Shown here in pieces: positions 30,103 through 49,658 of a DNA stretch of 64,000 nt. The translations under genes and the position numbers were made by a program. Location: NCBI RefSeq assembly GCF_000384295.1, contig NZ_KB913037.1, forward strand, positions 5,762,822 through 5,826,821, written 5' to 3'. The notes under the pieces were generated by a model that did no database searches, had not been told where the DNA came from, and saw only the letters and a program-made list of their open reading frames with translations. Within the stretch, counting starts at the first letter, position 1. Every line of letters begins with the position of its first letter. This DNA comes from Amycolatopsis balhimycina FH 1894 (GTDB lineage Bacteria > Actinomycetota > Actinomycetes > Mycobacteriales > Pseudonocardiaceae).

Positions 30103-30157
30103 GTTCGTGAAGGCCACCTTCCCGAACTACAAGTTCCTCAAGGTGGCCTTCACGAAC
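30103..30157. repeat. Intergenic palindrome family A, copy 1
   Basis: GTTCGTGAAGGCCACCTT (30103-30120) and its perfect reverse complement (30140-30157), 18-bp arms; the 19-nt centre still carries the family's AGTTCCTC. It begins 8 nt after the glycosyltransferase stop, and its right arm contains the marR TGA (30152-30150). Likely bidirectional terminator. Copies 2-4 are at 33327, 49610 and 58934. Confidence 0.85.
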
Positions 30158-32033: not shown

Positions 32034-33320
32034 ATGACGCGACGCACCGCAGACCAGGACGCCGAAGTCATCGTCGTCGGCGCTGGACCCGCTGGGTCCA
32101 CCGTGGCCACTTACCTGGCCCGCGCGGGCGTCGACGTCCTCCTGCTGGAGAAGACCGAGTTCCCCCGCGAGAAGGTCTGCGGCGACGGCCTGACCCCGCG
32201 CGGCGTCAAGCAGTTGATCGACCTGGGCATCGACACGAGCGAGGACGCGGGCTGGGTGCACAGCCGCGGCCTGCGGATCCTCACCGGCGACTTGACGTTG
32301 GAACTCGACTGGCCGGACCTGACGAGCTACCCGCCGTACGGCGTTTCCCGCACCCGCCACGACTTCGACGACCTGCTCGCGAAGCTCGCGGTGAAGGCGG
32401 GCGCGCGGCTGTACGAGCGCACCACGGTCACCGGTGCGATCACCAGCCCGGCCGGGCGCGTGGTCGGCGTCGAGGCGAAGGTCGGCCCCGAGCGGACGTC
32501 GGTGAGCTACCGCGCGCCGCTCGTCCTGGCCTGCGACGGCGTCTCCGCGCGGCTCGCGCTGAGCGTCGGCATCCAGAAGAACGAGAAGCGACCGATGGGC
32601 GTCGCGGTGCGCCAGTACTACAAGAGCCCGCGCCACGACGACCCGTTCATCGAGGGGCACCTCGAGCTGTGGGACCGCTCCGACCCGCGGGACCCGAAGC
32701 TGCTGCCGGGCTACGGCTGGGCGTTCCCCCTCGGCGACGGCACGGTGAACGTCGGCCTCGGCATGCTCTCGACGTCGGCGTCGTTCCGGAACACCGACTA
32801 CCGCGCGCTGCTGCGCCAGTGGCTCGACGGGACGCCGGAGGAGTGGGGCTACCGCGAGGAGAACGCGATCGGCAAGGTCGGCGGCGCCGGCCTCCCGATG
32901 GGCTTCAACCGCACCCCGCACTACCGCGACGGCCTGCTGCTGCTCGGCGACGCCGGCGGCATGGTCAGCCCGTTCAACGGCGAAGGCATCTCGGCCGCGA
33001 TGGAGTCCGCGCAGATCGCGGCGGAGGTCGTCGTGCAGGCGCTCGCGCGGCGCGAAGGGCCTTCGCGGGAGCGGGCGCTGGAGGCGTACCCGCGCGCGGT
33101 CGGCGAGCTGATGGGCGGCTACTACCAGCTGGGCAACGTCTTCGCGAAGATCATCGGCAAGCCGAAGATCATGCACGCCTGCACCAAGTACGGGCTGCGC
33201 GTCAACAAGCTCCTCCCGTTGGTGTACAAGGGCTTGTCGGGCTGCTACGACGCCAAGGGCGGCGACGGCGTCGACCGCCTGATCGCGGCGCTCGCCCGGG
33301 TCACCCCCACCCCCCGCTGA
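32034..33320 (+). CDS. menJ: Geranylgeranyl reductase family flavoprotein, MenJ-like menaquinone reductase
   Basis: 428 aa, leaderless ATG start. FAD binding at the N-terminus (VIVVGAGPAGSTVATYLARAG), then LEKTEFPREKVCGDGLTPRGVKQL, VSRTRHDFDDLLAKLA and the C-terminal GDAGGMVSPFNGEGISAAMES motif of the geranylgeranyl reductase/PHBH family. In mycobacteria MenJ (Rv0561c) saturates one double bond of the menaquinone side chain; position next to menG supports the same role. A role on other prenyl lipids (GGPP) is the alternative. A palindromic terminator begins 7 nt after its stop. Confidence 0.92.
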   Translation: MTRRTADQDAEVIVVGAGPAGSTVATYLARAGVDVLLLEKTEFPREKVCGDGLTPRGVKQLIDLGIDTSEDAGWVHSRGLRILTGDLTLELDWPDLTSYPPYGVSRTRHDFDDLLAKLAVKAGARLYERTTVTGAITSPAGRVVGVEAKVGPERTSVSYRAPLVLACDGVSARLALSVGIQKNEKRPMGVAVRQYYKSPRHDDPFIEGHLELWDRSDPRDPKLLPGYGWAFPLGDGTVNVGLGMLSTSASFRNTDYRALLRQWLDGTPEEWGYREENAIGKVGGAGLPMGFNRTPHYRDGLLLLGDAGGMVSPFNGEGISAAMESAQIAAEVVVQALARREGPSRERALEAYPRAVGELMGGYYQLGNVFAKIIGKPKIMHACTKYGLRVNKLLPLVYKGLSGCYDAKGGDGVDRLIAALARVTPTPR

Positions 33321-33326
33321 CGTACT

Positions 33327-33377
33327 TCGTGAAGGCCACCTTGAGGAACTACAAGTTCCTCAAGGTGGCCTTCACGA
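33327..33377. repeat. Intergenic palindrome family A, copy 2
   Basis: Perfect 24-bp arms (33327-33350 and 33354-33377) starting TCGTGAAGGCCACCTTGAGG with a 3-nt loop ACA; the longest intact copy. Located 7 nt after the menJ-like stop; here no convergent gene uses it. Between this repeat and the nuo promoter (33378-33578) I see no gene I can support. Confidence 0.88.
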
Positions 33378-33578
33378 GCTGGACCTCGTGCGCGCGGACA
33401 CGCGAGTGGTCTGGCAAGTTGGCCGTGCGGTCAGTGGGATAGCTCACACGCCGGAGTCCGGATTGTCGGGCCTCGAGGCGATCTTGAGGACCCTTCGCGC
33501 AGGTCGCGCGGGCGACGTCAGCGCGTCGTGACAACGATGGCGCGGGAAGTTAGGCGACCCTTATAACACGGGGGCCTA

Positions 33579-33608
33579 GGGACAAGAGTGTGAGTCGCGT
33601 CCTAGACT
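33579..33608 (+). promoter_or_regulatory. nuoA: Probable nuo operon promoter
   Basis: TAGACT (33603-33608) as -10, with GGGACA (33579-33584) at 18-nt spacing as a weak -35. A TATAAC at 33562-33567 is a second candidate -10. The leader to nuoA would be about 200 nt and contains both Rex-like operators just after the transcription start. Confidence 0.5.
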
Positions 33609-33619
33609 CCCCCCATGCT

Positions 33620-33637
33620 TTGTGAATCGCTTCACAT
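33620..33637. promoter_or_regulatory. Rex operator-like site 1
   Basis: TTGTGAATCGCTTCACAT: TGTGAA and TTCACA arms with a 4-nt centre, one mismatch at the outer base from the full TTGTGAA-N4-TTCACAA consensus. Centre 32 bp from site 2. Confidence 0.85.
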
Positions 33638-33649
33638 CCGCGACGAGTG

Positions 33650-33671
33650 GCTTGTGAACTATTTCACAAGC
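33650..33671. promoter_or_regulatory. Rex operator-like site 2
   Basis: GCTTGTGAACTATTTCACAAGC: perfect 9-bp arms around CTAT, containing the complete TTGTGAA-N4-TTCACAA core. Rex represses respiratory genes when NADH is low and leaves DNA at high NADH/NAD+. Confidence 0.92.
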
Positions 33672-33822: not shown

Positions 33823-34242
33823 GTGCTGACGTTGCTGACCCGAACCGACACGGTGCAGCTGGCGCAAGAGGCCCCGAGCCTGAAGCCCTACCTGCCCCTG
33901 GTCCTGTTGTTCGTGCTGGCGCTCGGTTTCGCCGTGCTGTCGGTCTTGCTCGGGCCGCTCGTCGGCCCCAGCCGGTACAACAAGGCCAAGCTCGAGGCCT
34001 ACGAGTGCGGCATCGAGCCGTCCCCGCAGCCGCTCGTCGGCGGCGGCCGGATGCCGGTCGCGTACTACATCACCGCGATGCTGTTCATCCTGTTCGACAT
34101 CGAGATGGTCTTCCTCTACCCGTTCGCCGTGCAGGCGGACGCGCTGGGCACGTTCGGCCTGGTGGAGATCCTGCTGTTCATCGCGACGGTCGGCTTCGCG
34201 TACGCCTACGTGTGGCGGCGCGGCGGCCTGGATTGGAACTAG
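33823..34242 (+). CDS. nuoA: NADH-quinone oxidoreductase subunit A
   Basis: 139 aa, GTG start, first gene of the complex I operon. Three transmembrane helices with [48 protein letters not shown], the highly conserved loop and second helix of NuoA. It forms part of the membrane arm at the quinone site junction with NuoH and NuoJ. GGAAAGGA upstream is about 13 nt away, a little far. nuoB follows after 4 nt. Confidence 0.95.
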
Positions 34243-34246
34243 ACCC

Positions 34247-34795
34247 ATGGGCCTCGAAGAGAAACTCCCCAACGGCATCCTGCTGGCCAGCCTCGAAGGT
34301 CTCGTCAACTGGTCGCGGAAGAACTCGATGTGGCCGGCCACCTTCGGGCTCGCCTGCTGCGCGATCGAGATGATGACCGTCGGCGGTTCCCGCTACGACA
34401 TCGCCCGCTTCGGCATGGAGCGCTTCAGCGCGACGCCGCGGCAGGCGGACCTGATGATCGTCGCCGGGCGCGTCACGCAGAAGATGGCCCCGGTCCTGCG
34501 CCAGATCTACGACCAGATGGCCGAGCCCAAGTGGGTTCTCGCGATGGGCGTCTGCGCCTCCTCCGGCGGCATGTTCAACAACTACGCCGTGGTCCAGGGC
34601 GTCGACCACATCGTGCCGGTCGACATGTACCTGCCCGGCTGCCCGCCGCGGCCGGAGATGCTGCTGGACGCGATCCTCAAGCTGCACGCCAAGATCCAGG
34701 ACGAGCCGATCAACGCCCGCCGCGCCGCGATCCGCGCCGCCAGCGGGGCGCGCACCGAGCTCGTCGCGTCGTCGATCAAGTACGCGAAGAAGTAG
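34247..34795 (+). CDS. nuoB: NADH-quinone oxidoreductase subunit B
   Basis: 182 aa. The N2 [4Fe-4S] ligands are visible: the tandem cysteines in [11 protein letters not shown], the Cys in [14 protein letters not shown] and the one in [16 protein letters not shown]. NuoB carries the last cluster in the chain and passes electrons to menaquinone at the NuoB/NuoD interface. Peripheral arm, cytoplasmic side. Followed by nuoC after 4 nt. Confidence 0.97.
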
Positions 34796-34799
34796 AGCG

Positions 34800-35549
34800 A
34801 TGACTGAGAACCCCCAACCCGGCGAAGAGCAGTCGAGCGCCGAGCGTGCCGAAACCGGCCTGACGGCCCAGGGTCCGGGTGCGGCCGAACCGGTCGTCAC
34901 CGGCCGCGAGCGCCAGGGCATGTTCGGCGTCCACGGCACCGGTGACACCTCCGGCTACGGCGGCGTCCGGCTCCCGGCCTACAGCCCCGCGCCCGCCGAG
35001 CGCCCCTACGGCGGCTGGTTCGACCAGTTCGCCGACGAGTTCTACGCGGCACTGGCCGAGCGCAAGATCCCCGCCGAGGCGATCCTGCAGACGACGGTCG
35101 ACCGCGGCGAGATCACCTTCTACGTCGCCCGCGAGCACCTGCCCGCCATCGCGAAGACCCTGCGCGACGACGGCGGCCTCCGCTTCGAACTGCTGTCCTC
35201 GGTGTCCGGTGTGGACTACGGCGTCGACGTCCCGCAGCGGCTGCACGCGGTCTACCACTTCACGTCGCTGACCTACCGGCGCCGCATCCGCCTCGAAGTC
35301 ACCCTCGACATCGAGGACGCGCACGTGCCGTCGCTGGTCGAGACCTACCCGACCGCCGACTGGCAGGAGCGGGAAGCCTGGGACATGTTCGGGATCGTCT
35401 TCGACGGTCACCCGGCGCTGACCCGGATCCTGATGCCGGACGACTGGGACGGCCACCCCCAGCGCAAGGACTACCCGCTCGGCGGGATCCCGGTCGAATA
35501 CAAGGGCGCGGAGATCCCGCCGCCGGACCAGCGGAGGTCGTACTCGTGA
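34800..35549 (+). CDS. nuoC: NADH-quinone oxidoreductase subunit C
   Basis: 249 aa, ATG start. An N-terminal acidic, low-complexity extension of about 75 residues precedes the 30-kDa subunit domain with [19 protein letters not shown] and the signature [31 protein letters not shown], ending in [12 protein letters not shown]. Peripheral arm scaffold next to NuoD. Overlaps nuoD by 4 nt (GTGA). Confidence 0.96.
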
Positions 35550-36877
35550 CCATCAACGAAGACACCACCGAAGTTCCCGAGGCGGACAGCCGCGACACGA
35601 CCGAAGGCCGCGTCTACAGCGTCTCCGGCGGCGACTGGGACGACGTCATCGCCGACGCGGCGCACGACGAGCGCATGGTCATCAACATGGGCCCGCAGCA
35701 CCCGTCGACGCACGGCGTGCTCCGGCTCGTGCTGGAGATGGAGGGCGAGACCGTCACGCAGCTGCGGTCGGTCATCGGCTACCTCCACACCGGCATCGAG
35801 AAGAACTGCGAGTACCGGACCTGGACCCAGGGCGTCACCTTCGTGACGCGCATGGACTACCTGGCCCCGCTCTCGACGGAGATGGCGTACTGCCTCGGCG
35901 TCGAGAAGCTGCTGCAGATCGAGGCCCCGCGCCGCGCGCAGCTGCTGCGCGTGATGCTGCTGGAGATCAACCGGATCGGCTCGCACCTGGTCTACATCGC
36001 CACCGGCGGCATGGAGCTCGGCGCCACCACCGCGATGACGCTCGGCTTCCGCGAGCGCGAAGAGGTGCTGCACCTGCTGGAGCACCTGACCGGCCTGCGG
36101 ATGAACCACGCGTTCATCCGCCCCGGCGGCCTCGCGCAGGACATGCCCGCCGACTACGTCGAGAAGGTCAGCGAATTCATCAAGACGATGAAGAAGCGCC
36201 TTCCGTTGTACGACAAGCTGTTCACCGGGCAGCCGATCTGGCGCAACCGGCTCAAGGGCGTCGGCTACCTGCCGGTCGACGCGTGCCTCGCGCTCGGCGT
36301 CACCGGCCCGGTGCTGCGGTCCGCGGGCCTGCCGTGGGACCTGCGCAAGACCGAGCCGTACTCCTGCTACGACGAATTCGACTTCGACGTCCCGGTCGAC
36401 AACGGTGCCGACTGCTGGTCGCGCTACCTGATCCGCGTCCACGAGATGCACGAGAGCCTCAAGATCATCGAGCAGTGCCTCGAGAAGCTCGAGCCGGGCC
36501 CGGTCATGGTCGAGGACAAGAAGGTCGCGTGGCCCGCGCAGCTGTCCATCGGCAGCGACGGCATGGGCAACTCCCTGGAACACGTCAAGAAGATCATGGG
36601 CCAGTCGATGGAGTCCCTGATCCACCACTTCAAGCTGGTCACCGAGGGCTTCAAGGTGCCGGCCGGGCAGGTCTACACCTCGGTCGAGTCGCCGCGCGGC
36701 GAGCTGGGCGTGCACCTGGTCTCCGACGGCGGCACCCGGCCGCTGCGGGTCCACGTGCGCGAACCGAGCTTCGTGAACCTGCAGTCGATGCCCGCCATGG
36801 CCGAGGGCGGCCTGGTCGCCGACGTGATCGCCGCCATCGCCTCGATCGACCCCGTCATGGGGGGAGTGGACCGATGA
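35546..36877 (+). CDS. nuoD: NADH-quinone oxidoreductase subunit D
   Basis: 443 aa, GTG start overlapping nuoC. 49-kDa subunit with [21 protein letters not shown] (quinone-site loop with the conserved His), [18 protein letters not shown] and [17 protein letters not shown]. It forms the quinone-binding pocket with NuoB and NuoH. Overlaps nuoE by 4 nt (ATGA). Confidence 0.97.
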
Positions 36878-37731
36878 CCACAGCAGTTCCCGAGCCGGGC
36901 CCGAACTACTCCGCGGCGACGCACGCCGCGGCCGGACCCGACACCGACGTCGTCGCCATCGCGCCGGACCCCAATGTGGCCGTCGGCATCATCACCGAGA
37001 CGCCCCTCGAGGACATCTTCGACGCGGACATCCACGCGAAGGCGCAGGACCTGATCGCGCGCTACCCGATGTCCCGCTCGGCGCTGCTGCCGCTGCTGCA
37101 CCTCGTGCAGTCGGTGCAGGGGTACGTCAGCCAGGAGGGCATCGCGTTCTGCGCGCGGCAGCTCGACCTGTCCGACGCCGAGGTCAGCGCGGTCGCGACG
37201 TTCTACACGATGTACAAGCGGCGTCCGTGCGGCGAGCACCTCGTGAGCGTCTGCACCAACACGCTGTGCGCGGCCATGGGCGGCGACGCGATCTACAAGA
37301 AGCTCCAAACGCACCTCGGTTCCGAAGAAAACCCGCTGGGGCACAACGAGACCGCGGGCACGCCGAACGAGCCGGGCTCGATCACCCTCGAGCACGCCGA
37401 GTGCCTCGCGGCCTGCGACCTCGCGCCGGTCATCCAGGTCAACTACGAGTACTTCGACAACCAGACCGAGGAGAAGGCCGTCGCGCTGGTCGACGCGCTG
37501 CAGGCGGGCAAGAAGCCGGCCCCGACGCGCGGTGCCCCGCTGACCAGCTTCAAGGGCGCCGAGCTGCAGCTCGCCGGGTTCTTCCCGGAGGACGAGCGGA
37601 CCTACCGCAAGGACGTCGACGGCCCGTCGCAGGCCGTCGAGACGCTGCGGGGCGCGAAGCTCGCGCAGGACCGCGGCTGGGTCGCGCCCGTCGCGCAAGA
37701 CGTCCCGCTTCCCGAAGTGGAGAAGAAGTAA
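36874..37731 (+). CDS. nuoE: NADH-quinone oxidoreductase subunit E
   Basis: 285 aa, longer than the usual ~165-240 owing to an N-terminal ~45-residue extension and a C-terminal extension of about 70 residues ([20 protein letters not shown] onward). Thioredoxin-like 24-kDa subunit with the [2Fe-2S] ligands in [13 protein letters not shown] (C-x4-C) and [12 protein letters not shown] (C-x3-C). It sits beside NuoF at the NADH end. Overlaps nuoF by 1 nt (TAATG). Confidence 0.96.
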
Positions 37732-39011
37732 TGGCCGATCCCATTACCCCGGTCCTCACGAAGCGCTGGCTGTCCCCGAACTCCTGGCAGATCGGGACGT
37801 ACGAGGCACTCGAGGGCTACACCGCCGTCCGCAAGGCCCTCGCCGGGACGCCGGAGCAGCTCGTCCAGCTGGTCAAGGACTCCGGTCTGCGCGGCCGCGG
37901 CGGCGCGGGCTTCCCGGCCGGCATCAAGTGGTCGTTCATGCCGCCGAACTTCGACAAGCCGCACTACCTGGTCATCAACGCCGACGAGGGCGAACCGGGG
38001 ACCTGCAAGGACATCCCGCTGATGATGGCGGACCCGCACTCGCTCATCGAGGGCTGCATCATCGCCTCGTACGCGATGCGGTCCAACCACTGCTTCATCT
38101 ACGTCCGCGGCGAGGCGCTGCACTGCATCCGCCGCCTCAACGCGGCCGTGCGCGAAGCCGAAGCGGCGGGCTACCTGGGCGAGAACATCCTCGGCTCCGG
38201 CTTCGACCTCAAGATCACCGTCCACGCGGGAGCGGGTGCGTACATCTGCGGCGAAGAGACGGCGCTGCTCGACTCGCTGGAAGGCCGTCGTGGCCAGCCG
38301 CGGCTCAAGCCGCCGTTCCCGGCCGCCGCGGGTCTCTACGCCGCGCCGACCACGGTCAACAACGTCGAGACCATCGCGAGCGCGCCGTTCATCGTCAACG
38401 GCGGCTCCAGCTGGTTCCGCGAGATGGGCCGCGAAAAGTCGCCCGGTCCGAAGATCTACTCGATCTCCGGCCACGTCGAGAAGCCCGGCCAGTACGAGTG
38501 CCCGCTCGGCACGACGCTGCGTGAGCTGCTGGACATGGCGGGCGGCATGAAGGACGGCATCCCGCTCAAGTTCTGGACCCCGGGCGGCTCGTCCACCCCG
38601 ATGTTCACCGCGGAGCACCTCGACGTTCCCCTGGACTTCGAGGGCGCGGCGGAAGCTGGGTCGATGCTCGGCACGACCGCGGTCCAGGTCTTCAACGAGA
38701 CCGTGTCCGTGCCGTGGGCCGTGATGAAGTGGACGCAGTTCTACGAGCACGAGTCCTGCGGTAAGTGCACGCCGTGCCGCGAAGGCACGTACTGGCTGGC
38801 GCAGATCCTCGAGCGGATGGTCGAGGGCCACGGCACCGAGGAGGACATCGACACCCTCCTCGACGTCTGCGACAACATCCTCGGCCGGTCCTTCTGCGCC
38901 CTCGGTGACGGCGCGGTGTCGCCGATCACCAGCGGCATCAAGTACTTCCGCGACGAATTCCTCGCTCTGTGTGAGAGCAACAAGCGCGAACTGGTGGGAG
39001 CGCAGGCATGA
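37731..39011 (+). CDS. nuoF: NADH-quinone oxidoreductase subunit F
   Basis: 426 aa. FMN/NADH-binding 51-kDa subunit: [62 protein letters not shown], and the N3 [4Fe-4S] ligands in [16 protein letters not shown]. It takes electrons from NADH to FMN at the tip of the peripheral arm. Overlaps nuoG by 4 nt (ATGA). Confidence 0.97.
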
Positions 39012-41479
39012 CGATCGCCCCCGACAAGCCCGAGACCAAAGAGACGCCGGTCCCTGAAGGCCACGTCAAGCTGGTCATCGACGGCGAAGAGGTCATCGCC
39101 CCCAAGGGCGAGCTCCTCATCCGCACGGCCGAACGCCTCGGCACGGTCATCCCGCGGTTCTGCGACCACCCGCTCCTCTCCCCGGCGGGCGCCTGCCGCC
39201 AGTGCCTGGTCGAGGTCGAGATGGGCGGCCGGCCGATGCCGAAGCCGCAGGCGTCCTGCACGATGACCGTCGCCGACGGCATGGTCGTCAAGACGCAGCT
39301 GACGTCGCCGGTCGCGGACAAGGCCCAGCAGGGTGTGATGGAGCTGCTGCTCATCAACCACCCGCTGGACTGCCCGATCTGCGACAAGGGTGGTGAGTGC
39401 CCGCTGCAGAACCAGGCGCTGGCCCACGGCCGCACCGAATCCCGGTTCGTCGACACCAAGCGGACGTTCCCGAAGCCGCTGCCGATCTCGACGCAGGTGC
39501 TGCTGGACCGCGAACGCTGTGTGCTCTGCCAGCGCTGCACCCGGTTCTCCAGCGAGATCGCCGGCGACCCGTTCATCGAGCTCCTCGAACGCGGCGCCCA
39601 CCAGCAGATCGGCACCGCGGAGACGGCGGACGTGCTCGACATGGCGTCGCGGACGACGTCCGGCCAGCCGTTCCAGTCCTACTTCTCGGGCAACGTCATC
39701 CAGATCTGCCCGGTCGGCGCGCTCACCAGCGCCGCCTACCGCTTCCGTTCCCGCCCGTTCGACCTGGTGTCCTCGCCGAGCGTCTGCGAGCACTGCTCGT
39801 CCGGCTGCGCCGAGCGCACCGACTTCCGGCGCGGCAAGGTCCAGCGCAAGCTGGCCGGTGACGACCCCGAGGTCAACGAAGAGTGGATCTGCGACAAGGG
39901 CCGGTTCGCGTTCCGCTACACCGGTGCCGAGGACCGCATCCGCCGTCCGCTGGTCCGCAACCGCGAGACCGGTGAGCTGGAAGAAGCGTCCTGGACCGAC
40001 GCGCTGCGCGCCGCGGCGGCCGGGCTGGTCGAAGCCCGATCGAACGGTGGCGTCGGCGTCCTGACCGGTGGTCGGCTGACCGTCGAGGACGCCTACGCGT
40101 ACTCGAAGTTCGCCCGCGTCGCCCTGCGGACCAACGACGTCGACTTCCGCGCCCGCCCGCACTCGGCCGAGGAACTCGCGTTCCTCACCTCGCACGTCGT
40201 GAGCGTGACGCCGGAGTCCGGCGTCACCTTCGGCGAGATCGAGCGGGCCCGGACGGTCCTGTGCGTGGCGTTCGAGCCCGAGGACGAGGCGCCGATCGTG
40301 TTCCTGCGGCTGCGCAAGGCGGCCCGCCGGAACAAGACCCGCGTCGTCCACTTGGGACAGTGGACGACGTCGTCGGTGCGCAAGACGTTCGGCGAGCTGC
40401 TCGCCTGCGTCCCCGGCCAGGAGGCCGCGGCCGTCGAGGGCATCGCCAAGCACGCGCCGGACCTCGACGAAGCCCTGAGCGGCGAAGGCGCCGTGGTCCT
40501 GGTCGGCGAGCGCGCCGCCGCGATCCCGGGCCTCTTCTCGGCCCTGCACGACCTGGTGGAGCGCACCGGCGTCCGGCTCGCGTGGATCCCGCGCCGCGCC
40601 GGCGACCGGGGCGCCCTCGAGACCGGCTGCGTGCCGTCGCTGCTGCCCGGCGGCCGCCGGGTCGGCGACGACGCCGCCCGCGTCGCCGTCGAGAACGCCT
40701 GGGGCGTCCCGATCCCGGCCACCCCGGGCCGCGACACGACCGACATCCTGCTGGCCGCCTCGGCTCGCGAGCTGGGTGGCCTGGTCGTCGGCGGTGTCGA
40801 CCCGTTCGACCTGCCGGACCCGGACCTCGCGCTGCGCGCGCTGGACAGCGCCGGGTTCGTGGTCAGCCTCGAACTGCGGCACAGCGCGGTGACCGGACGC
40901 GCGGACGTCGTCCTCCCGGTGGCCGCGTCGGACGAGAAGGCGGGCAGCTACCTCAACTGGGAGGGCCGCACCCGCCCGTTCGACGTCACCCTCGAAGGCA
41001 CCGGCGCCCTGCCGGACTGCCGGGTGCTCGACACCCTCGCCGTCGAGATGGACGCGGACCTGTTCACGCAGACGCCGGCCGCCGCGCGCGGCGACTTCGA
41101 GAAGCTGGGCGTGGCTTCGGCGCTGCGCTGGAGCCACGTTGCCGCCGAGGTCGCGCCGCCCGCCACGCCGGGTGCCGGCCAGGCAATCCTGTCGACCTGG
41201 CGCCAGCTGATCGACAACGGGTCGCTGCAGGACGGCGAACCGCACCTGAAGGGCACCCAGCGCACGCCGGTCGCGCGGTTGTCCGCGAAGACCGCCGAAG
41301 GACTGGGCACCACCGTGCGGGTCAGCACCGAACGCGGTGCGATCACGCTGCCGGTGGAGATCGCCGACCTGCCCGACGGCGTCGTCTGGCTGCCGGGCAA
41401 CTCCGACGGCTCCGCCGTGGCCAAGACGCTCGGCGCCGGACACGGCGCCGTGGTGAACCTCGCTGGAGGTGGGCAATGA
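39008..41479 (+). CDS. nuoG: NADH-quinone oxidoreductase subunit G
   Basis: 823 aa. Ferredoxin-like N-terminal domain with [2Fe-2S] ligands in [21 protein letters not shown], then [20 protein letters not shown] and [11 protein letters not shown] for the N4/N5 clusters. A further CEHCSSGC with a distant Cys in [10 protein letters not shown] is the CxxCxxxC...C motif of the extra N7 cluster. A molybdopterin-oxidoreductase-like C-terminal domain follows. It is the electron wire from NuoF toward NuoI. Overlaps nuoH by 4 nt. Confidence 0.96.
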
Positions 41480-42825
41480 CCCCGCTGCTGACCGAAACCG
41501 TCGTGGGCAGCGTCCCGGACGCGGCGACGCGGGCGGCGCTGCTCGCCGACGACCCGTTGTGGCTGATCCTGCTCAAGTGCGTGGTCATCCTGCTGATCGG
41601 GCCGATCCTGACGATCTTCCTGATCGTCTGGGAGCGCAAGGCGGTCGGCCGGATGCAGAACCGGCCCGGCCCCAACCGGGTCGGCCCCGGCGGTTACCTG
41701 CAGTCCCTGGCGGACGCGATCAAGCTGCCGTTCAAGGAACAGATCATCCCGGACACCGCCGACCGCAAGGTGTACTTCCTCGCCCCGGTCGTCTGCGTGG
41801 TGCCCTCGCTGATCGCGCTGTCGGCCATCCCGTTCGGGCCGGTCGTGTCGATCTTCGGCGAGCGCACCGTGCTGCAGCTGCTCGACCTGCCGGTCAGCGC
41901 GCTGGTGATCCTGGCCTGCTCCTCGATCGGCGTCTACGGCATCGTGCTCGCCGGCTGGTCGTCCGGCTCGCCGTACCCGCTGCTCGGCGGCATGCGCAGC
42001 GCGGCGCAGGTGATCTCCTACGAGATCGCGATGGGCCTGTCGATCGTCGCGGTGATCCTGCAGGCCGGGTCGCTGAACCTGGCCGACATCGTCGGCGCGC
42101 AGCACAAGGCGTGGTTCCTCTACCTGGTCCCCAGCTTCGTGATCTACCTGATCTCGATGGTCGGCGAGACCAACCGCGCCCCGTTCGACCTCCCCGAGGC
42201 CGAGTCGGAGCTGGTCGGCGGCTTCCACACCGAGTACAGCTCGATGAAGTTCGCGATGTTCTTCCTCGCCGAGTACGTCAACATGGTGATCGTCTCGGCG
42301 TTCGCGACGACGTTGTTCCTCGGCGGCTGGATGGCCCCGTGGCCGCTGTCGCTGATCGGGAACAACGTGCTCAACACCGGCTGGTGGCCGGTGCTGTGGT
42401 TCTTCGCGAAGATGTTCGTCCTGCTGTTCGGGTTCATCTGGCTGCGCGGCACGCTGCCCCGCCTGCGCTACGACCAGTTCATGCGGCTGGGCTGGAAGGT
42501 CCTGGTCCCGCTGAACCTGGTGTGGATCGTCATGGTGACCTTCGCGAAGGTCATCACCTGGAACACCACGACCATCATCATCGCCGCGGTCGCGATCTTC
42601 ATCGTCGTCGCGCTGTTCTTCTACGTTCGCGCCGCGGGCCGCGAAGAGGAGAGCGAAAGCATCCCGGTGACCGGTGGCGGCTTCCCGGTTCCGCCGCTGG
42701 ACCTCAAGGTCCCGCAGACCACCCCGCGTCAGAAGGCTTTGGCCAAGGCCGAGGCGAAGGCGGCCCGCCGCAAGCCGGCGGCCGTCGGTACCGCAAAGGA
42801 AGGAGCACAAGATGGGGTTTCTTGA
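41476..42825 (+). CDS. nuoH: NADH-quinone oxidoreductase subunit H
   Basis: 449 aa with about eight or nine helices. Conserved quinone-chamber motifs [31 protein letters not shown] and [28 protein letters not shown] are present. A charged C-terminal extension of about 65 residues ([20 protein letters not shown] ... [16 protein letters not shown]) goes beyond the usual end. It links the quinone site to the membrane arm. Overlaps nuoI by 14 nt. Confidence 0.96.
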
Positions 42826-43336
42826 TCCCGTCAAGGGCTTCGGCGTCACCTTCGGGATGATGTTCAAGAAGGTCGCCACCGAGGAGTACCCGGAGGCCGG
42901 CGCGCCGGCCGCGCCGCGGTACCACGGCAGGCACCAGCTGAACCGCCACCCCGACGGCCTCGAGAAGTGCGTCGGCTGCGAGCTGTGCGCGTGGGCGTGC
43001 CCGGCGGACGCGATCTTCGTCGAGGGCGGTGACAACACCGAGGAAGCCCGGTTCTCGCCGGGTGAGCGGTACGGCGCGGACTACCAGATCAACTACCTGC
43101 GCTGCATCGGCTGCGGCCTCTGCGTCGAGGCGTGCCCGACCCGGTCGCTGACGATGATCAACTTCTACGAGCTGGCCGACGACGACCGCCAGCGGCTGAT
43201 CTACACGAAGGAAGACCTGCTCGCCCCGCTGCTGCCCGGCATGGAGCAGCCGCCGCACCCGATGCGGCTCGGCGAGAACGAGCAGGACTACTACGTGAAC
43301 GGCCCCGAACTGGCACGCGGGGAGGGCGTCAAGTGA
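42812..43336 (+). CDS. nuoI: NADH-quinone oxidoreductase subunit I
   Basis: 174 aa; the ATG at 42812 inside the end of nuoH is supported by GGAAGGAG at good spacing. Two [4Fe-4S] motifs: [18 protein letters not shown] and [19 protein letters not shown] (N6a and N6b). It passes electrons from NuoG to NuoB. Overlaps nuoJ by 4 nt (GTGA). Confidence 0.97.
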
Positions 43337-44193
43337 TCGCCGCACTTCTCGCCCAGGCGCCGAACGCGTCCGCGGGCGTCTCGACCGGCGAGGCCATCGC
43401 GTTCTGGGTTCTCGGCCCGGTCTCGCTGCTCGGCGCGCTAGGGATGATCTTCTCCCGCAACGCCGTGCACTCGGCGCTGTGGCTGGTGCTGACCATGCTG
43501 AGCCTGGGCGCGCTGTACATGATCCAGTCGGCGCCGTTCCTGGGCTTCACGCAGATCATCGTCTACACCGGCGCGATCATGATGCTGTTCCTGTTCGTGC
43601 TGATGCTGGTCGGCCGGGAGAGCTCGGACTCGGTTGTCGAAGTCCTCCGTGGACAGCGGCTGGCCGCGACCGTGCTCGGCATCGGCCTGGCCGCGCTGCT
43701 GGCCACCGGCATCTACCGGGCGCTGGAGAACGTCACCCCGGCCATCCCGCTCGACTCGGCCACGCCGGCGGGCGGCGGGCCGAAGGGCCTGGGCCGGCTG
43801 ATCTTCACCGACTACCTGTTCCCGTTCGAGCTGACGTCGGCGCTGCTCATCACCGCCGCGATCGGCTCGATGGTGCTGGCCTTCACCGACCGGCACGGCA
43901 AGGGCGGCAAGCTCTCGCAGCGGGAACTGGTCCTGCTGCGCTTCCGCGGTGAGCACGACCGGCCGTCGCCGCTGCCCGGCCCGGGTGTCTTCGCCACCGC
44001 CAACTCGGTGGCGACGCCGGCCCTGCTGCCGGACGGCTCGGTCGCGCCGGAGTCGCTGTCGGCGATCATCGAGTCCACCTCGGCGATCGAGCTGGCGAAG
44101 GAACGCAAGCTCGTCAAGGACGAGGGCCCGCACCCGGACGCGCACGCGCTGGTCGGCTCCGACTCTTCGGAACCCGAGGGGGAGAAGGCATGA
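43333..44193 (+). CDS. nuoJ: NADH-quinone oxidoreductase subunit J
   Basis: 286 aa, GTG start. Five helices, with [51 protein letters not shown], the NuoJ signature including the pi-bulge helix. The C-terminal ~110 residues are a hydrophilic extension ([20 protein letters not shown] to [10 protein letters not shown]) that is not part of the core subunit and is typical in length of actinobacterial NuoJ. Overlaps nuoK by 4 nt. Confidence 0.95.
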
Positions 44194-44489
44194 CCCCGAC
44201 GTACTACCTGCTGCTGTCGGCGCTGTTGTTCTCGCTCGGCGCGGTCGGCGTGCTGGTGCGGCGCAACGCGATCGTCGTGTTCATGTGCATCGAGCTGATG
44301 CTCAACGCCGTGAACCTGACGCTGGTCACCTTCGCCCGGATCAACGGCGGGCTCGACGGCCAGATCATGGCGTTCTTCGTCATGGTCGTCGCGGCCGCCG
44401 AGGTCGTGGTCGGCCTGGCGATCATCATGGCCATCTTCCGCACCCGGCGCTCGGCCTCGGTCGACGACACCAACCTGCTGAAGTACTAG
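44190..44489 (+). CDS. nuoK: NADH-quinone oxidoreductase subunit K
   Basis: 99 aa, three helices with the buried glutamates of the proton path in [17 protein letters not shown] and [18 protein letters not shown]. MrpC-like antiporter-type subunit. nuoL starts 11 nt after the stop, preceded by AGGAGA. Confidence 0.96.
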
Positions 44490-44500
44490 GAGACCCCCGA

Positions 44501-46438
44501 GTGACCGCATCATCGTGGCTGCTGGTGGCCTTTCCTGCCCTCGGCGCGCTCGTCCTGCTGCTGGCAGGGAAGCGAGCCAAGGCGTGGGGGCATCTGCTCG
44601 GCTGTGCCACCGTCACCCTGGCCTTCGTCTACGGCCTGATCCTGTTCTTCACCGCCGACACGGGCACCACGACGGACACCAAGCTGTACTCGTGGATCCC
44701 GGCCGGTGCGCTGCAGATCGACTTCGGGCTGCGGATCGACGCGCTGTCGCTGACGTTCGTGCTGCTCATCACCGGCGTCGGCATGCTGATCCACTACTAC
44801 TCGATCGGCTACATGGCCGACGACGAGGGCCGGTACCGCTTCTTCGCGTACCTGAACCTCTTCGTCGCGTCGATGCTGATCCTGGTGCTGGGCAACAGCT
44901 TCGTGACGCTCTACCTGGGCTGGGAGGGCGTGGGTCTCGCGTCCTACCTGCTCATCGGCTGGTACCAGGGCCGTCCGTCCGCCGCGACCGCGGCGAAGAA
45001 GGCGTTCCTGATGAACCGCGTCGGGGATGTCGGGCTGGCGCTGGCGATCTTCATCATGTTCAAGTACGCGGGCTCGACCGGCTACGCGCAGGTGTTCCAG
45101 GCGGTCGGCGACGGCAAGTTCTCGCTGGGCGCGATCACCGCGATGGCGATCCTGCTCCTGCTGGGCGCCTGCGGTAAGTCCGGCCAGTTCCCGCTGCAGG
45201 CGTGGCTCCCGGACGCGATGGAGGGCCCGACCCCGGTGTCGGCCCTGATCCACGCGGCGACGATGGTGACCGCGGGCGTCTACCTGGTGGCCCGCTCCAA
45301 GGACATCTTCAACGCCACCGAAGACGGCCGCCTGATCGTCACGCTGGTCGGCACGGTGACCCTGCTGCTCGGGTGCATCATCGGCTGCGCGTACGACGAC
45401 ATCAAGAAGGTCCTCGCGTACTCCACGGTCAGCCAGATCGGCTACATGATGCTCGCCGTCGGCCTCGGGCCGATCGCCTACGCGCTGGGCATCATGCACC
45501 TGGTCGCGCACGGCTTCTTCAAGGCCGGGCTGTTCCTCGGGGCCGGGTCGGTCATGCACGGCATGAACGACGAGGTCGACATGCGGAAGTTCGGCGGCCT
45601 GCGCAAGCACATGCCGATCACCTTCATCACCTTCGGCCTCGGGTACCTGGCCCTGATCGGCATCCCGCCGCTGTCGGGCTTCTTCACCAAGGACGCGATC
45701 ATCGAAGCGGCGTTCGGCCAGGGCGGCTGGCGCGGCTGGGTGATGGGCGGCGCGGCGCTGCTGGGCGCCGGGCTCACCGCGTTCTACATGACGCGCCTGA
45801 TGATGATGACGTTCTTCGGCAAGGAGCGCTGGAAGGACATCAACACAGCGTTGGAGCTCGATCCCGCAAGCGGATCTTCGGGCGACGGCCCACGGCCTTT
45901 CCACCCGCACGAGTCCAAGGCGATCATGTGGGTCCCGATGGCGGTGCTGGCGGTCGGCTCGGTCGGCGCCGGCGCGTTCTTCGCCCTCGGTGACCGCTTC
46001 GCCGAGTGGCTGACCCCCTCGGTCGGCAAGCTGGAGGAAGCCCACCACTCGCCGCTGAACGCCGGCGTGATCTCGGCGGGCGCGATCGTGTTCTCGCTGC
46101 TCGGTGTGCTGATCGCGTACCTGATCTTCCGCCGTGACGTCCCGGTCGAGCGGCCCGAGCGGGTCTCGTTCGTCACCCGGGCCGCGCGCAAGGACCTGTA
46201 CGGCAACACCCTCAACGAGACGCTGGTCGCCCGCCCGGGCACCTGGCTCTCGCGGGCGCTGGTGTTCGTCGACAACCGCGGCGTCGACGGCGCGGTCAAC
46301 GGCCTGGCGGCCTCCCTCGGCGGCGGCTCCGGCCGGCTGAGGCGGCTCCAGACCGGGTTCGTCCGGTCCTACGCGCTGTCGATGCTCGGCGGCACGTTCC
46401 TGCTTCTGGCGGCTCTCCTGCTGGTGAGGTTCTCCTGA
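44501..46438 (+). CDS. nuoL: NADH-quinone oxidoreductase subunit L
   Basis: 645 aa, GTG start. About 15-16 helices; the antiporter motifs [59 protein letters not shown] and [20 protein letters not shown] are present, with the key Lys and Glu. It pumps protons at the distal end and carries the lateral helix near its C-terminus. Overlaps nuoM by 1 nt (TGATG). Confidence 0.97.
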
Positions 46439-48027
46439 TGACCTGGTTGCTCATCCTCATCCTGGTGCCGCTCGCCGGCTCCCTGGTGCTGGCGTTCCTC
46501 AAGGGGAACGACCGCGCCGCGGTGCTGGCCGCGCTGGCGTTCTCGATCCTCGAGTTCCTGCTGATCATCCCGTTCTGGCTCAGCTACTCGCCTTCGGGTG
46601 CGCGGCTGCAGATGACGTCGAGCTTCGACTGGATCCCGAGCTTCGGGGTGCACATCGCGTTCGGCACCGACGGCATCTCGCTGATCATGATCGCGGTGAT
46701 CGCGCTGCTGGTGCCGATCGTCGTCGGCGGGCTCGGCACGCTGGACAAGCTGCCACCGGGCCGCAGCGCGGGCGGGTTCCTGTCGCTGATCCTGCTGCAG
46801 GAAGCGCTCACGATCGGCGTGTTCGCCGCGACCGATGTCTTCCTGTTCTACGTGCTGTTCGAGATCATGCTGATCCCGATGTACTTCCTCATCGGCGGCT
46901 ACGGCGGCGCGAACCGGCAGTACGCGGCGGTGAAGTTCTTCCTGTACTCGTTCCTCGGCGGCCTGATCATGCTGGCGTCGGCGATCGGGGCGTACTCGCT
47001 CGCGGCCGACAAGCTCGGCAAGGGCACGTTCGACTGGGCCACGCTGGTGACGGTGGTCCGCGACGCGCCGCTGTCGACGCAGATCTGGCTGTTCCTCGGG
47101 TTCTTCCTGGCGTTCGCGATCAAGGCGCCGCTGGTGCCGTTCCACACCTGGCTGCCGGACGCGGCGGGGGAGGCGCCGATCGGCGTCGCCGTCCTGCTGG
47201 TCGGCGTGCTGGACAAGGTCGGCACGTTCGGGTTCCTGCGCTACTGCCTGCCGATGTTCCCCCAGGCGAGCAAGACCCTCGCGCCGCTGGTGCTGGTGCT
47301 CTCGGTGATCGGTGTCCTCTATGGATCGATCCTCGCCGCCGGGCAGCGGGACATGAAGCGGTTCATCGCCTACGTCTCGATCGCGCACTTCGGCTTCATC
47401 TCGCTGGGCATCTTCGCGTTCAACGAGCAGGCGATGATCGGCTCGGCGACGTACATGCTCAACCACAGCCTCGCGACCGGCATGCTGATCGTGGTGATCG
47501 GCCTGGTGATCACGCGCGGCGGGTCGTCGAAGATCTCCGACTACGGCGGCATGGCGAAGGTGACCCCGTTGCTGGCGGGCATGTTCCTCCTCGCCGGTCT
47601 GTCGACGCTTTCGCTGCCGGGCACCAACTCGTTCGTCTCCGAGTTCCTGGTGCTCATCGGGTCCTTTGTGGACCAGCCGGTGTACACGATCCTCGCCACG
47701 GTGGGCATGGTCCTGGCCGCGGCGTACGTCCTGTGGCTCTACCAGCGCGTCATGCAGGGCCCGGTCCGCGGTGACGCTGTGTTTTCGCCGGCCCCGACGG
47801 GGCCTCCCACCCCGACCAGCGTGGAGTCGGGTGGCGCCGTAGCCACAGCAACCGTGGCTGAGTCCGGATCAACAAAGGTCATCCGCGACCTGAGCGGGCG
47901 GGAGATCGCGATCCTCGCGCCGCTGGTCGTGCTGATCCTCGTTCTCGGCTTCTACCCGAAGCCGGTGCTCGACACAGTCACCCCGACGGTGCAGCAGACG
48001 CTGTCCTCGGTCCAGGGAGGCAAGTAA
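46438..48027 (+). CDS. nuoM: NADH-quinone oxidoreductase subunit M
   Basis: 529 aa. About 14 helices and the antiporter motifs FYVLFEIMLIPMYFLIGGYGG (with the buried Glu), FAIKAPLVPFHTWLPDAAGEAPIGVAVLLVGVLDKVGTFG and MKRFIAYVSIAHFGFISLGI. An internal low-complexity loop (PAPTGPPTPTSVESGGAVAT) precedes the last helix. Proton channel of the membrane arm. nuoN begins 2 nt after its stop. Confidence 0.97.
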   Translation: MTWLLILILVPLAGSLVLAFLKGNDRAAVLAALAFSILEFLLIIPFWLSYSPSGARLQMTSSFDWIPSFGVHIAFGTDGISLIMIAVIALLVPIVVGGLGTLDKLPPGRSAGGFLSLILLQEALTIGVFAATDVFLFYVLFEIMLIPMYFLIGGYGGANRQYAAVKFFLYSFLGGLIMLASAIGAYSLAADKLGKGTFDWATLVTVVRDAPLSTQIWLFLGFFLAFAIKAPLVPFHTWLPDAAGEAPIGVAVLLVGVLDKVGTFGFLRYCLPMFPQASKTLAPLVLVLSVIGVLYGSILAAGQRDMKRFIAYVSIAHFGFISLGIFAFNEQAMIGSATYMLNHSLATGMLIVVIGLVITRGGSSKISDYGGMAKVTPLLAGMFLLAGLSTLSLPGTNSFVSEFLVLIGSFVDQPVYTILATVGMVLAAAYVLWLYQRVMQGPVRGDAVFSPAPTGPPTPTSVESGGAVATATVAESGSTKVIRDLSGREIAILAPLVVLILVLGFYPKPVLDTVTPTVQQTLSSVQGGK

Positions 48028-48029
48028 CC

Positions 48030-49598
48030 GTGCTCGACATCCTCCTGACGCAGGCGCAGCCGCCGATCGCGACGCCGTCGGTGAACTACCCGGCGGTGCT
48101 GCCGATGCTGATCGTCTTCGGCGCGGCGTGCGTCAGCGTGCTGGTCGAGGCGTTCGCGTCGAAGCGCTCGCGCTTCGGCCTGCAGGTCGGGCTGAGCCTG
48201 GCGGCGATCGTGGCGGCCGGCGTCAGCCTGTTCCTCTACGCCACGGGCGACGCGCCCGCGGGCGGCGTCAAGACGTTCAGCGGCGCGATCTCGATCGACC
48301 GGCCGGCGCTGTTCCTCTGGGGCACGCTGCTGGCCTTGGCCGTCGGCGCGGTGCTGCTGATCTCGGACCGCGTGGTCGAGCCGGGCGGCGCGCTGGTCGC
48401 GCAGGCCGGCATCCGCCCTGGCACGCTCCAGGACCGTGCGCAGACGGCGACGGTCATGCAGACCGAGGTGTTCCCGCTGACGCTGTTCGCGCTTGGCGGC
48501 ATGATGGCGTTCTGCGCGTCGAACGACCTGTTGACGATGTTCATCGCGCTGGAAGTCCTGTCGCTGCCGCTGTACCTGATGTGCGGCCTGGCCCGGCGGC
48601 GGCGGTTGCTGTCGCAGGAGGCGGCGGTCAAGTACTTCCTGCTCGGCGCGTTCTCGTCGGCGTTCTTCCTGTACGGGCTGGCGCTGCTGTACGGCTACGC
48701 GAACTCCGTGAAGCTGGGCGACATCGCGAACGCGGCGGCCGGGTCCGACCGGTCGGACACGCTGCTGTTCGCCGGGCTGGGTCTCTTGGTGGTCGGTCTG
48801 CTGTTCAAGGGCTCGGTCGGCCCGTTCCACACGTGGACCCCGGACGTGTACCAGGGAGCGCCGACACCGGTGACGGCGTTCATGGCGGCGTGCACGAAGG
48901 TCGCGGCGTTCGGCGGGATCCTGCGGGTGCTGTCGGTGGCGTTCTCGTCGACTTCGTGGGAGTGGCGCGGAGTCCTGTGGGGGGTGGCGATCATCTCGAT
49001 GGTGATCGGCGCGGTGCTGGGCCTGACGCAGACGGACGTCAAGCGCATGGTGGCGTATTCGTCGATCGCGCACGCGGGTTTCCTGCTGGTCGGGGCGATC
49101 GCGATGACTCGCGACGGTTTGTCCAGCACGCTGTTCTACCTGCTGGCGTACGGCTTCACGACGCTGGCGGCGTTCGGCGTGATCAGCCTGGTCCGCGACT
49201 CGTCGGGGGAGGCAACGCACCTCTCGGCGTGGGCGGGGCTGGCGAAGCGGTCACCGTTGGTGGCGGCCGTGTTCACGTTCCTGCTCTTGGCTCTGGCGGG
49301 CATTCCTTTGACGTCCGGTTTCGTGGGCAAGTTCGTGGTCTTCTCGGCAGCGCTGTCGGACGGAATGGCACCGCTGGTCGTGATCGCGTTGGTGTTCAGC
49401 GCGGTGGCGGCGTTCTTCTACCTGCGGGTGATCGTCCTGATGTACTTCTCAGAGCCGGCGCCCGACGGCCCCTCGGTATCGGTCCCGGGCTTCGGCACGG
49501 GCACGGCGATCTTCCTCGGCACGGGCGTGACGCTGGTGCTGGGCCTGGTCCCGGCGTTCGCTCTCGGCTGGGCGGGCTCGGGCGGTTTCGCTTTCTGA
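48030..49598 (+). CDS. nuoN: NADH-quinone oxidoreductase subunit N
   Basis: 522 aa, GTG start. About 14 helices with MFIALEVLSLPLYLMCGLARR, FKGSVGPFHTWTPDVYQGAPTPVTAFMAACTKVAAF and VKRMVAYSSIAHAGFLLVGAI. The innermost antiporter-like subunit of the membrane arm. Last gene of the 14-gene nuo operon; a palindromic terminator begins 11 nt after its stop. Confidence 0.97.
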   Translation: MLDILLTQAQPPIATPSVNYPAVLPMLIVFGAACVSVLVEAFASKRSRFGLQVGLSLAAIVAAGVSLFLYATGDAPAGGVKTFSGAISIDRPALFLWGTLLALAVGAVLLISDRVVEPGGALVAQAGIRPGTLQDRAQTATVMQTEVFPLTLFALGGMMAFCASNDLLTMFIALEVLSLPLYLMCGLARRRRLLSQEAAVKYFLLGAFSSAFFLYGLALLYGYANSVKLGDIANAAAGSDRSDTLLFAGLGLLVVGLLFKGSVGPFHTWTPDVYQGAPTPVTAFMAACTKVAAFGGILRVLSVAFSSTSWEWRGVLWGVAIISMVIGAVLGLTQTDVKRMVAYSSIAHAGFLLVGAIAMTRDGLSSTLFYLLAYGFTTLAAFGVISLVRDSSGEATHLSAWAGLAKRSPLVAAVFTFLLLALAGIPLTSGFVGKFVVFSAALSDGMAPLVVIALVFSAVAAFFYLRVIVLMYFSEPAPDGPSVSVPGFGTGTAIFLGTGVTLVLGLVPAFALGWAGSGGFAF

Positions 49599-49609: not shown

Positions 49610-49658
49610 CGTGAAGGCCACCTTGAGGAACGTAGAGTTCCTCAAGGTGGCCTTCACG
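49610..49658. repeat. Intergenic palindrome family A, copy 3
   Basis: 22-bp perfect arms (49610-49631, 49637-49658), CGTGAAGGCCACCTTGAGG with a 5-nt loop GTAGA. Terminates the nuo operon, 11 nt after nuoN; the right arm contains the TGA (49656-49654) of the converging 94-residue gene. Confidence 0.88.

Follow-up and report, generated by a model that had tools for sequence, protein, structure and literature searches.

The cyd genes are a leading Rex target in Streptomyces, and in Bacillus subtilis several Rex sites follow the promoter of one respiratory operon, in the cydABCD leader. For complex I the closest described case is the nuoA1 promoter of Streptomyces avermitilis, where a Rex footprint on TTGTGACCTGCTTCACAT is reported together with gel shift and ChIP data (PMC5355995). 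The same report gives Rex footprints on TTGTGCACGCGTTCACAA at rex and on TCGTGAAAGCGTTCACAT at wblE, the homologue of whiB1, higher expression of nuoA1 and wblE in a rex deletion strain, and a weakening of Rex binding by NADH, tested on the cydA1 promoter (PMC5355995).

We analysed a window of 64,000 nucleotides of Amycolatopsis balhimycina FH 1894, positions 5762822-5826821 of a 10.86-Mb genome assembled in a single contig. It carries nuoA-N (33823..49598, forward strand), the presumably co-transcribed complex I genes. The first of them, nuoA (33823..34242, forward strand; NCBIfam NF005922), is read from a GTG whose assignment as start codon is uncertain, and its product is 96% identical to NuoA of three named Amycolatopsis loci. 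Two palindromes of 18 bp, to which no strand is assigned, lie between nuoA and an upstream gene of the geranylgeranyl/menaquinone-reductase kind (32034-33320). These predicted Rex operators, ROP1 (TTGTGAATCGCTTCACAT, 33620..33637) and ROP2 (TTGTGAACTATTTCACAA, 33652..33669), were compared with the experimentally supported published Rex operator consensus TTGTGAANNNNTTCACAA, an 18-bp palindrome with 14 fixed bases, of which ROP1 keeps 13 (one mismatch) and ROP2 all 14. The initial annotation had described them as Rex-type operators with centres 32 bp apart on one face of the helix; both 18-mers are present where it placed them, the distance is correct, and at 10.5 bp per turn it amounts to 3.05 turns, which leaves the two centres 17 degrees away from exact alignment on one face.

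A scan of the window for TTGTGAANNNNTTCACAA with up to three mismatches yields four matches for 0.27 expected by chance, the two besides ROP1 and ROP2 having three mismatches each. Genome-wide, nine sites have at most two mismatches, compared with two for a reversed-pattern control: a single perfect one, which is ROP2 and has no equal in the 10.86 Mb, two with one mismatch (ROP1 and a site at whiB1) and six with two. A first-order Markov estimate based on the composition of the window predicts 0.0014 perfect sites per genome. The two sites are real and are kept in relatives; judged from their sequence, they are almost certainly Rex operators of nuo.

At its threshold, a simple scan for the sigma-70 consensus detected no promoter in the nuo leader, so the promoter boxes were assigned by conservation across relatives. 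The -10 box TAGACT (33603..33608, forward strand), pointed out in the initial annotation, is conserved as TA(C/G)ACT upstream of the first site in 35 of 36 paired nuo leaders, at a distance of 10-12 bp in 33 of them, and both ROP1 and ROP2 lie downstream of it. A probable -35 box, GGACAA (33580..33585, forward strand), precedes it by 17 bp; this box is GACA-like in the Amycolatopsis leaders examined, but not clearly so in the other named genera examined. With the transcription start taken about 7 bp after the -10 box, ROP1 would extend from about +5 to +22 and ROP2 from about +37 to +54. Given such a start, a protein bound 10-12 bp past the -10 box, as in 33 of 36 leaders, would hinder transcription, and ROP1 and ROP2 so placed would more likely act by arresting RNA polymerase at promoter escape or in early elongation than by simply masking the -35 box, as in the published S. 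avermitilis layout.

A palindromic hairpin of 47 bp, with 21-bp arms around a 5-bp loop, flanks the nuo genes at 33329-33375 and 49611-49657; the arms are exact in both of these copies. A third copy at 30107-30153 has one diverged arm, and the arms are also found elsewhere in the genome; the element is perhaps an intergenic repeat or a two-way terminator. The one Rfam match, of the hairpin at 33325-33378 to a microRNA model (mir-431), was rejected, scoring 22.6 bits for a threshold of 70.

The initial annotation made its proposal depend on a rex gene in the same genome, and one is found about 38 kb from the operators, 4.8 kb before the window. Its 305-aa product scores 376 bits with the NCBIfam equivalog NF003992 (cut-off 226) and matches both Pfam domains, and seven of its eight PDB matches, including the best one, are named Rex. 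The rex leader carries TTGTGCGCGCGTTCACAA, with two mismatches to the consensus, 130 bp before the ORF start used and one base off the footprinted S. avermitilis rex operator. The whiB1 leader site TCGTGAAAGCATTCACAA (1501-1518, in front of whiB1 at 1573-1845, in coordinates of the extracted whiB1 locus) is two bases off the footprinted wblE operator. Every genome site with no or one mismatch, three in all, precedes nuo or whiB1; a target gene, rex, was assigned to only one of the six with two mismatches, and another of these falls inside what we take to be a glnK-like reading frame. Four of the nine sites (two before nuo, one at whiB1/wblE, one at rex) correspond to footprinted S. avermitilis Rex targets. 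No Rex-type site was found, at up to four mismatches, in the extracted flanks of four cydA-type loci. By their resemblance to the S. avermitilis operators, the nuo, whiB1 and rex sites look like the core Rex regulon of Streptomyces without cyd. The whiB1 palindrome is of Rex type here and in Streptomyces, and whiB1 is described as a CRP target in Mycobacterium tuberculosis (PMC4117774); different lineages may use different regulators to read one kind of palindrome.

For the distribution of the paired layout, a strict pair was defined as GTGAANNNNTTCAC occurring twice with centres 20-50 bp apart. It is found in 225 of 297 genomes of the family (Pseudonocardiaceae), covering 37 of 46 genera, and the reversed pattern in none. 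Narrower searches retrieved pairs at 16-29 bp in 57 genomes (20, 23, 24, 26 and 29 bp listed) and at 34-64 bp in three (34, 34 and 35 bp), leaving by subtraction 165 of the 297 genomes, or 165 of the 225 with a pair, at 30-33 bp; this number assumes one pair per genome, none having more among the matches listed, and the adjoining gene was checked in part. Among 30 listed loci of the 20-50-bp search, 20 adjoin nuoA and 10 whiB1, and all 16 spaced by 31-33 bp are next to nuoA. The 30 listed loci of the 16-29-bp search, 14 of them shared with the previous list, comprise 11 with a clear NuoA, one with a weak partial NuoA, 16 with whiB1 and two with neither. The spacings are 20, 26 and 29 bp at whiB1, and 20, 23, 24, 30-33, 34 and 35 bp at nuoA. 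Within the matches listed, no family genome has more than one strict pair at 20-50 bp, so that a strict pair at whiB1 goes with none at nuo, and the reverse.

Leaders were also gathered through NuoA, from 80 named loci and 30 more. Thirty-six of them, window included, have a pair closer than 40 bp: 27 at 32 bp, three at 33, two at 31, and one each at 30, 24, 23 and 20 bp. Amycolatopsis, Kibdelosporangium, Lentzea, Saccharothrix, Actinokineospora, Actinophytocola, Kutzneria and Labedaea are among the genera given in their record titles. Out of 58 named loci, 33 have such a pair, six have one site or a loose far pair, and 19 have no site at nuo, one of these having a leader of just 75 bp, too short to judge. 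The site is missing at nuo in six of seven Saccharopolyspora and in all five Actinomycetospora loci, and in all 26 nuo leaders obtained from the 37 genomes searched in other families of the order. In Klenkia a single, perfect site lies next to where the NuoA match begins. Streptomyces/Kitasatospora-type leaders have one site near NuoA in 18 of 18 cases, two also with a weak far site, and in one the site is identical to the footprinted S. avermitilis nuoA1 operator. A contig labelled Rhodococcus rhodnii, probably a mislabelled assembly, has the pair in a Kibdelosporangium-like nuo leader.

The 14-bp spacers between ROP1 and ROP2 share a mean identity of 44% (19 distinct sequences) and are nearly constant in length, and the stretch from the second site to the start of the NuoA match ranges from 17 to 360 bp. 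Since the letters of the spacer diverge while its length hardly changes, the -10 box, ROP1 and ROP2 look like a unit under selection. The pairing seems to be a doubled, lineage-specific form of a known switch, common to many relatives, not to all.

We hold it highly probable, from the sequence and by analogy, that ROP1 and ROP2 form a tandem Rex operator of nuoA-N at which NADH-free Rex represses and from which NADH releases it. Starting from the computed sites, their conservation, the -10/ROP1/ROP2 geometry and the rex gene, we infer binding, repression, release by NADH and a division of labour between ROP1 and ROP2. At a low NADH/NAD+ ratio NADH-free Rex dimers would occupy both sites, which begin right past the -10 box and would cover the transcript start. 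Rex bound to ROP1 would stop RNA polymerase from starting or from leaving the promoter, and ROP2 could add a further block or assist by raising Rex occupancy. Accumulation of NADH would release Rex and allow complex I to be made; complex I would then re-oxidise NADH, closing a feedback loop. That the control runs in this direction follows from the Streptomyces work, an analogy that makes repression of nuo by NADH-free Rex very likely.

This reading retains most of what the initial annotation had proposed, namely Rex-type operators placed past the -10 box in a genome with rex, and agrees with the Rex repression described for the S. avermitilis nuo promoter (PMC5355995); the part that fares less well is cooperative binding. 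Three helical turns are indeed the commonest spacing in the family, but nuo pairs of relatives are also found at 20, 23, 24, 34 and 35 bp, some of them far off-face (103 degrees at 24 bp, 120 degrees at 35 bp). These off-phase exceptions indicate that strict phasing is not required, and shared ancestry explains part of the 32-bp mode. A candidate Rex half-site, GTGTGAG (33588..33594, forward strand), lies between the -35 and -10 boxes, in register 32 bp before ROP1. Of the 36 paired leaders, 21 have its TGTGA (33589-33593) in exactly this position and 23 have it there or shifted by at most 1 bp, the offset being the best of 54 scanned and chosen post hoc; TGTGA is missing there in paired leaders of Lentzea, Saccharothrix, Actinophytocola, Kutzneria and Labedaea. 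GTGTGAG could equally be a promoter element. A three-step array with a 32-bp period, formed by half-site, ROP1 and ROP2 for cooperative Rex assembly, is a speculation that we think unlikely. If true, complex I would switch sharply, not gradually, with the NADH/NAD+ ratio, and among the Rex targets of this lineage nuo would be the best equipped, in place of cyd.

Other explanations of the palindromes have to be weighed. That they arose by chance and have no function is hardly conceivable: only 3e-5 core pairs (gap 6-36) are expected per genome by the same Markov estimate, against strict pairs in three quarters of the family genomes and none in the reversed control. A reading compatible with Rex is that a single site suffices, ROP2 being the operator and ROP1 a spare or the reverse, with the 32-bp spacing inherited and not selected. 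Streptomyces indeed has one site near nuoA, spacings elsewhere span 20-35 bp with some off-face, and in several relatives ROP1 departs further from the consensus than ROP2; yet both sites are retained in 33 of the 58 named loci, and the spacing stays at 30-33 bp in 33 of 36 pairs while the spacers diverge. We see this simpler arrangement as possible, though rather improbable.

The palindromes could instead be sites of the cAMP receptor protein (CRP/GlxR-type), which would act on nuo alone or share the sites with Rex. The CRP core TGTGA-N6-TCACA is nested in the Rex palindrome and is matched exactly by both sites; a CRP homologue is present in the genome, its match to the NCBIfam CRP model staying below the cut-off, and in all 40 order genomes searched. 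Moreover, M. tuberculosis whiB1 is described with tandem CRP sites (PMC4117774), and whiB1 here has a palindrome of the same type. We therefore selected nuo-leader sites using nothing but the CRP core, allowing one mismatch over its ten bases, which gave 43 distinct sites from Pseudonocardiaceae-type loci. Positions just inside and outside the core would vary freely in CRP sites, but the Rex consensus letters are kept at A7 in 39 of the 43, T12 in 38, T1 in 36 and A18 in 31, counts that come from related sequences of shared ancestry, not independent ones; the CRP of this organism may also itself prefer certain flanks. Across the genome, 78 places match the core when one mismatch is allowed (control: 45); six of them are perfect, and A7 and T12 occur together in just two of the six, namely the nuo sites. 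The site is absent from all 26 leaders of other families despite CRP being in 40 of 40 order genomes; rex is in 38 of these 40 too (37 over the family cut-off), which makes the point neutral for Rex. The co-occurrence of rex with nuo pairs proved useless for telling Rex from CRP: rex is near-universal, site or no site, being in 293 of 297 family genomes as well, and many rex-bearing family genomes lack the strict pair or any site at nuo, so its presence cannot discriminate between the two. Finally, the Streptomyces footprints at nuo and wblE are reported to be those of Rex (PMC5355995). The case for CRP, judged at the level of sequence, is weakened by these data and we find it decidedly unlikely, although CRP may conceivably bind in addition to Rex.

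Rex control of nuoA-N through ROP1 and ROP2 would add a family of soil actinobacteria to the known range of a well-tested NADH switch, and the spacings at nuo among relatives (20, 23, 24, 30-33 and 34-35 bp) offer a natural test set for the cooperation of Rex dimers along DNA. Our literature search, which left most subscription papers outside, retrieved no report of Rex in this family or of two or tandem Rex sites, and we do not claim absence from print. The term stem 'cooperativ' was not found in the four Rex papers searched for it; the question may be treated elsewhere.

Compared with the B. subtilis cydABCD leader, the Amycolatopsis leader likewise has multiple Rex-type sites past the promoter, in a different operon and a different phylum. 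It shares with M. tuberculosis whiB1 tandem palindromes of the TGTGA-N6-TCACA type at a conserved promoter, but there the protein is CRP, with activating and inhibiting sites, and the gene another one (PMC4117774). At S. avermitilis cydA1 a full site just past the start (protected from -3 to +25) is accompanied by a nearby half-site and two shifted bands, and the report describes no second full site there (PMC5355995); no cyd site was found here. The wblE operator lies downstream of the start (+108 to +135), where a block of polymerase progress is proposed, although with one full site plus a half-site and at a different gene (PMC5355995). The S. avermitilis nuoA1-N1 operon has in common with nuoA-N the repressor family, the operon and the class of 18-bp palindrome; it differs by its one operator, protected from -42 to -16 over the -35 box (PMC5355995), when here two full operators lie past the -10 box. 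This Streptomyces-type layout, with one operator over the -35/-10 spacer, is not found in the window, where the spacer holds the candidate half-site only. In seven Streptomyces-type nuo leaders that we examined, the single operator is preceded at about 15-16 bp by a TA(G/A)GAT box, which is not easy to reconcile with the published start, relative to which the S. avermitilis operator spans -42 to -16 (PMC5355995). What is new is the layout, tandem and past the promoter, not the principle, the actinobacterial nuo operator described in that report being single and overlapping the promoter (PMC5355995). What is probably the same repressor would here act on the same operon through another arrangement, two sites past the promoter versus one across it.
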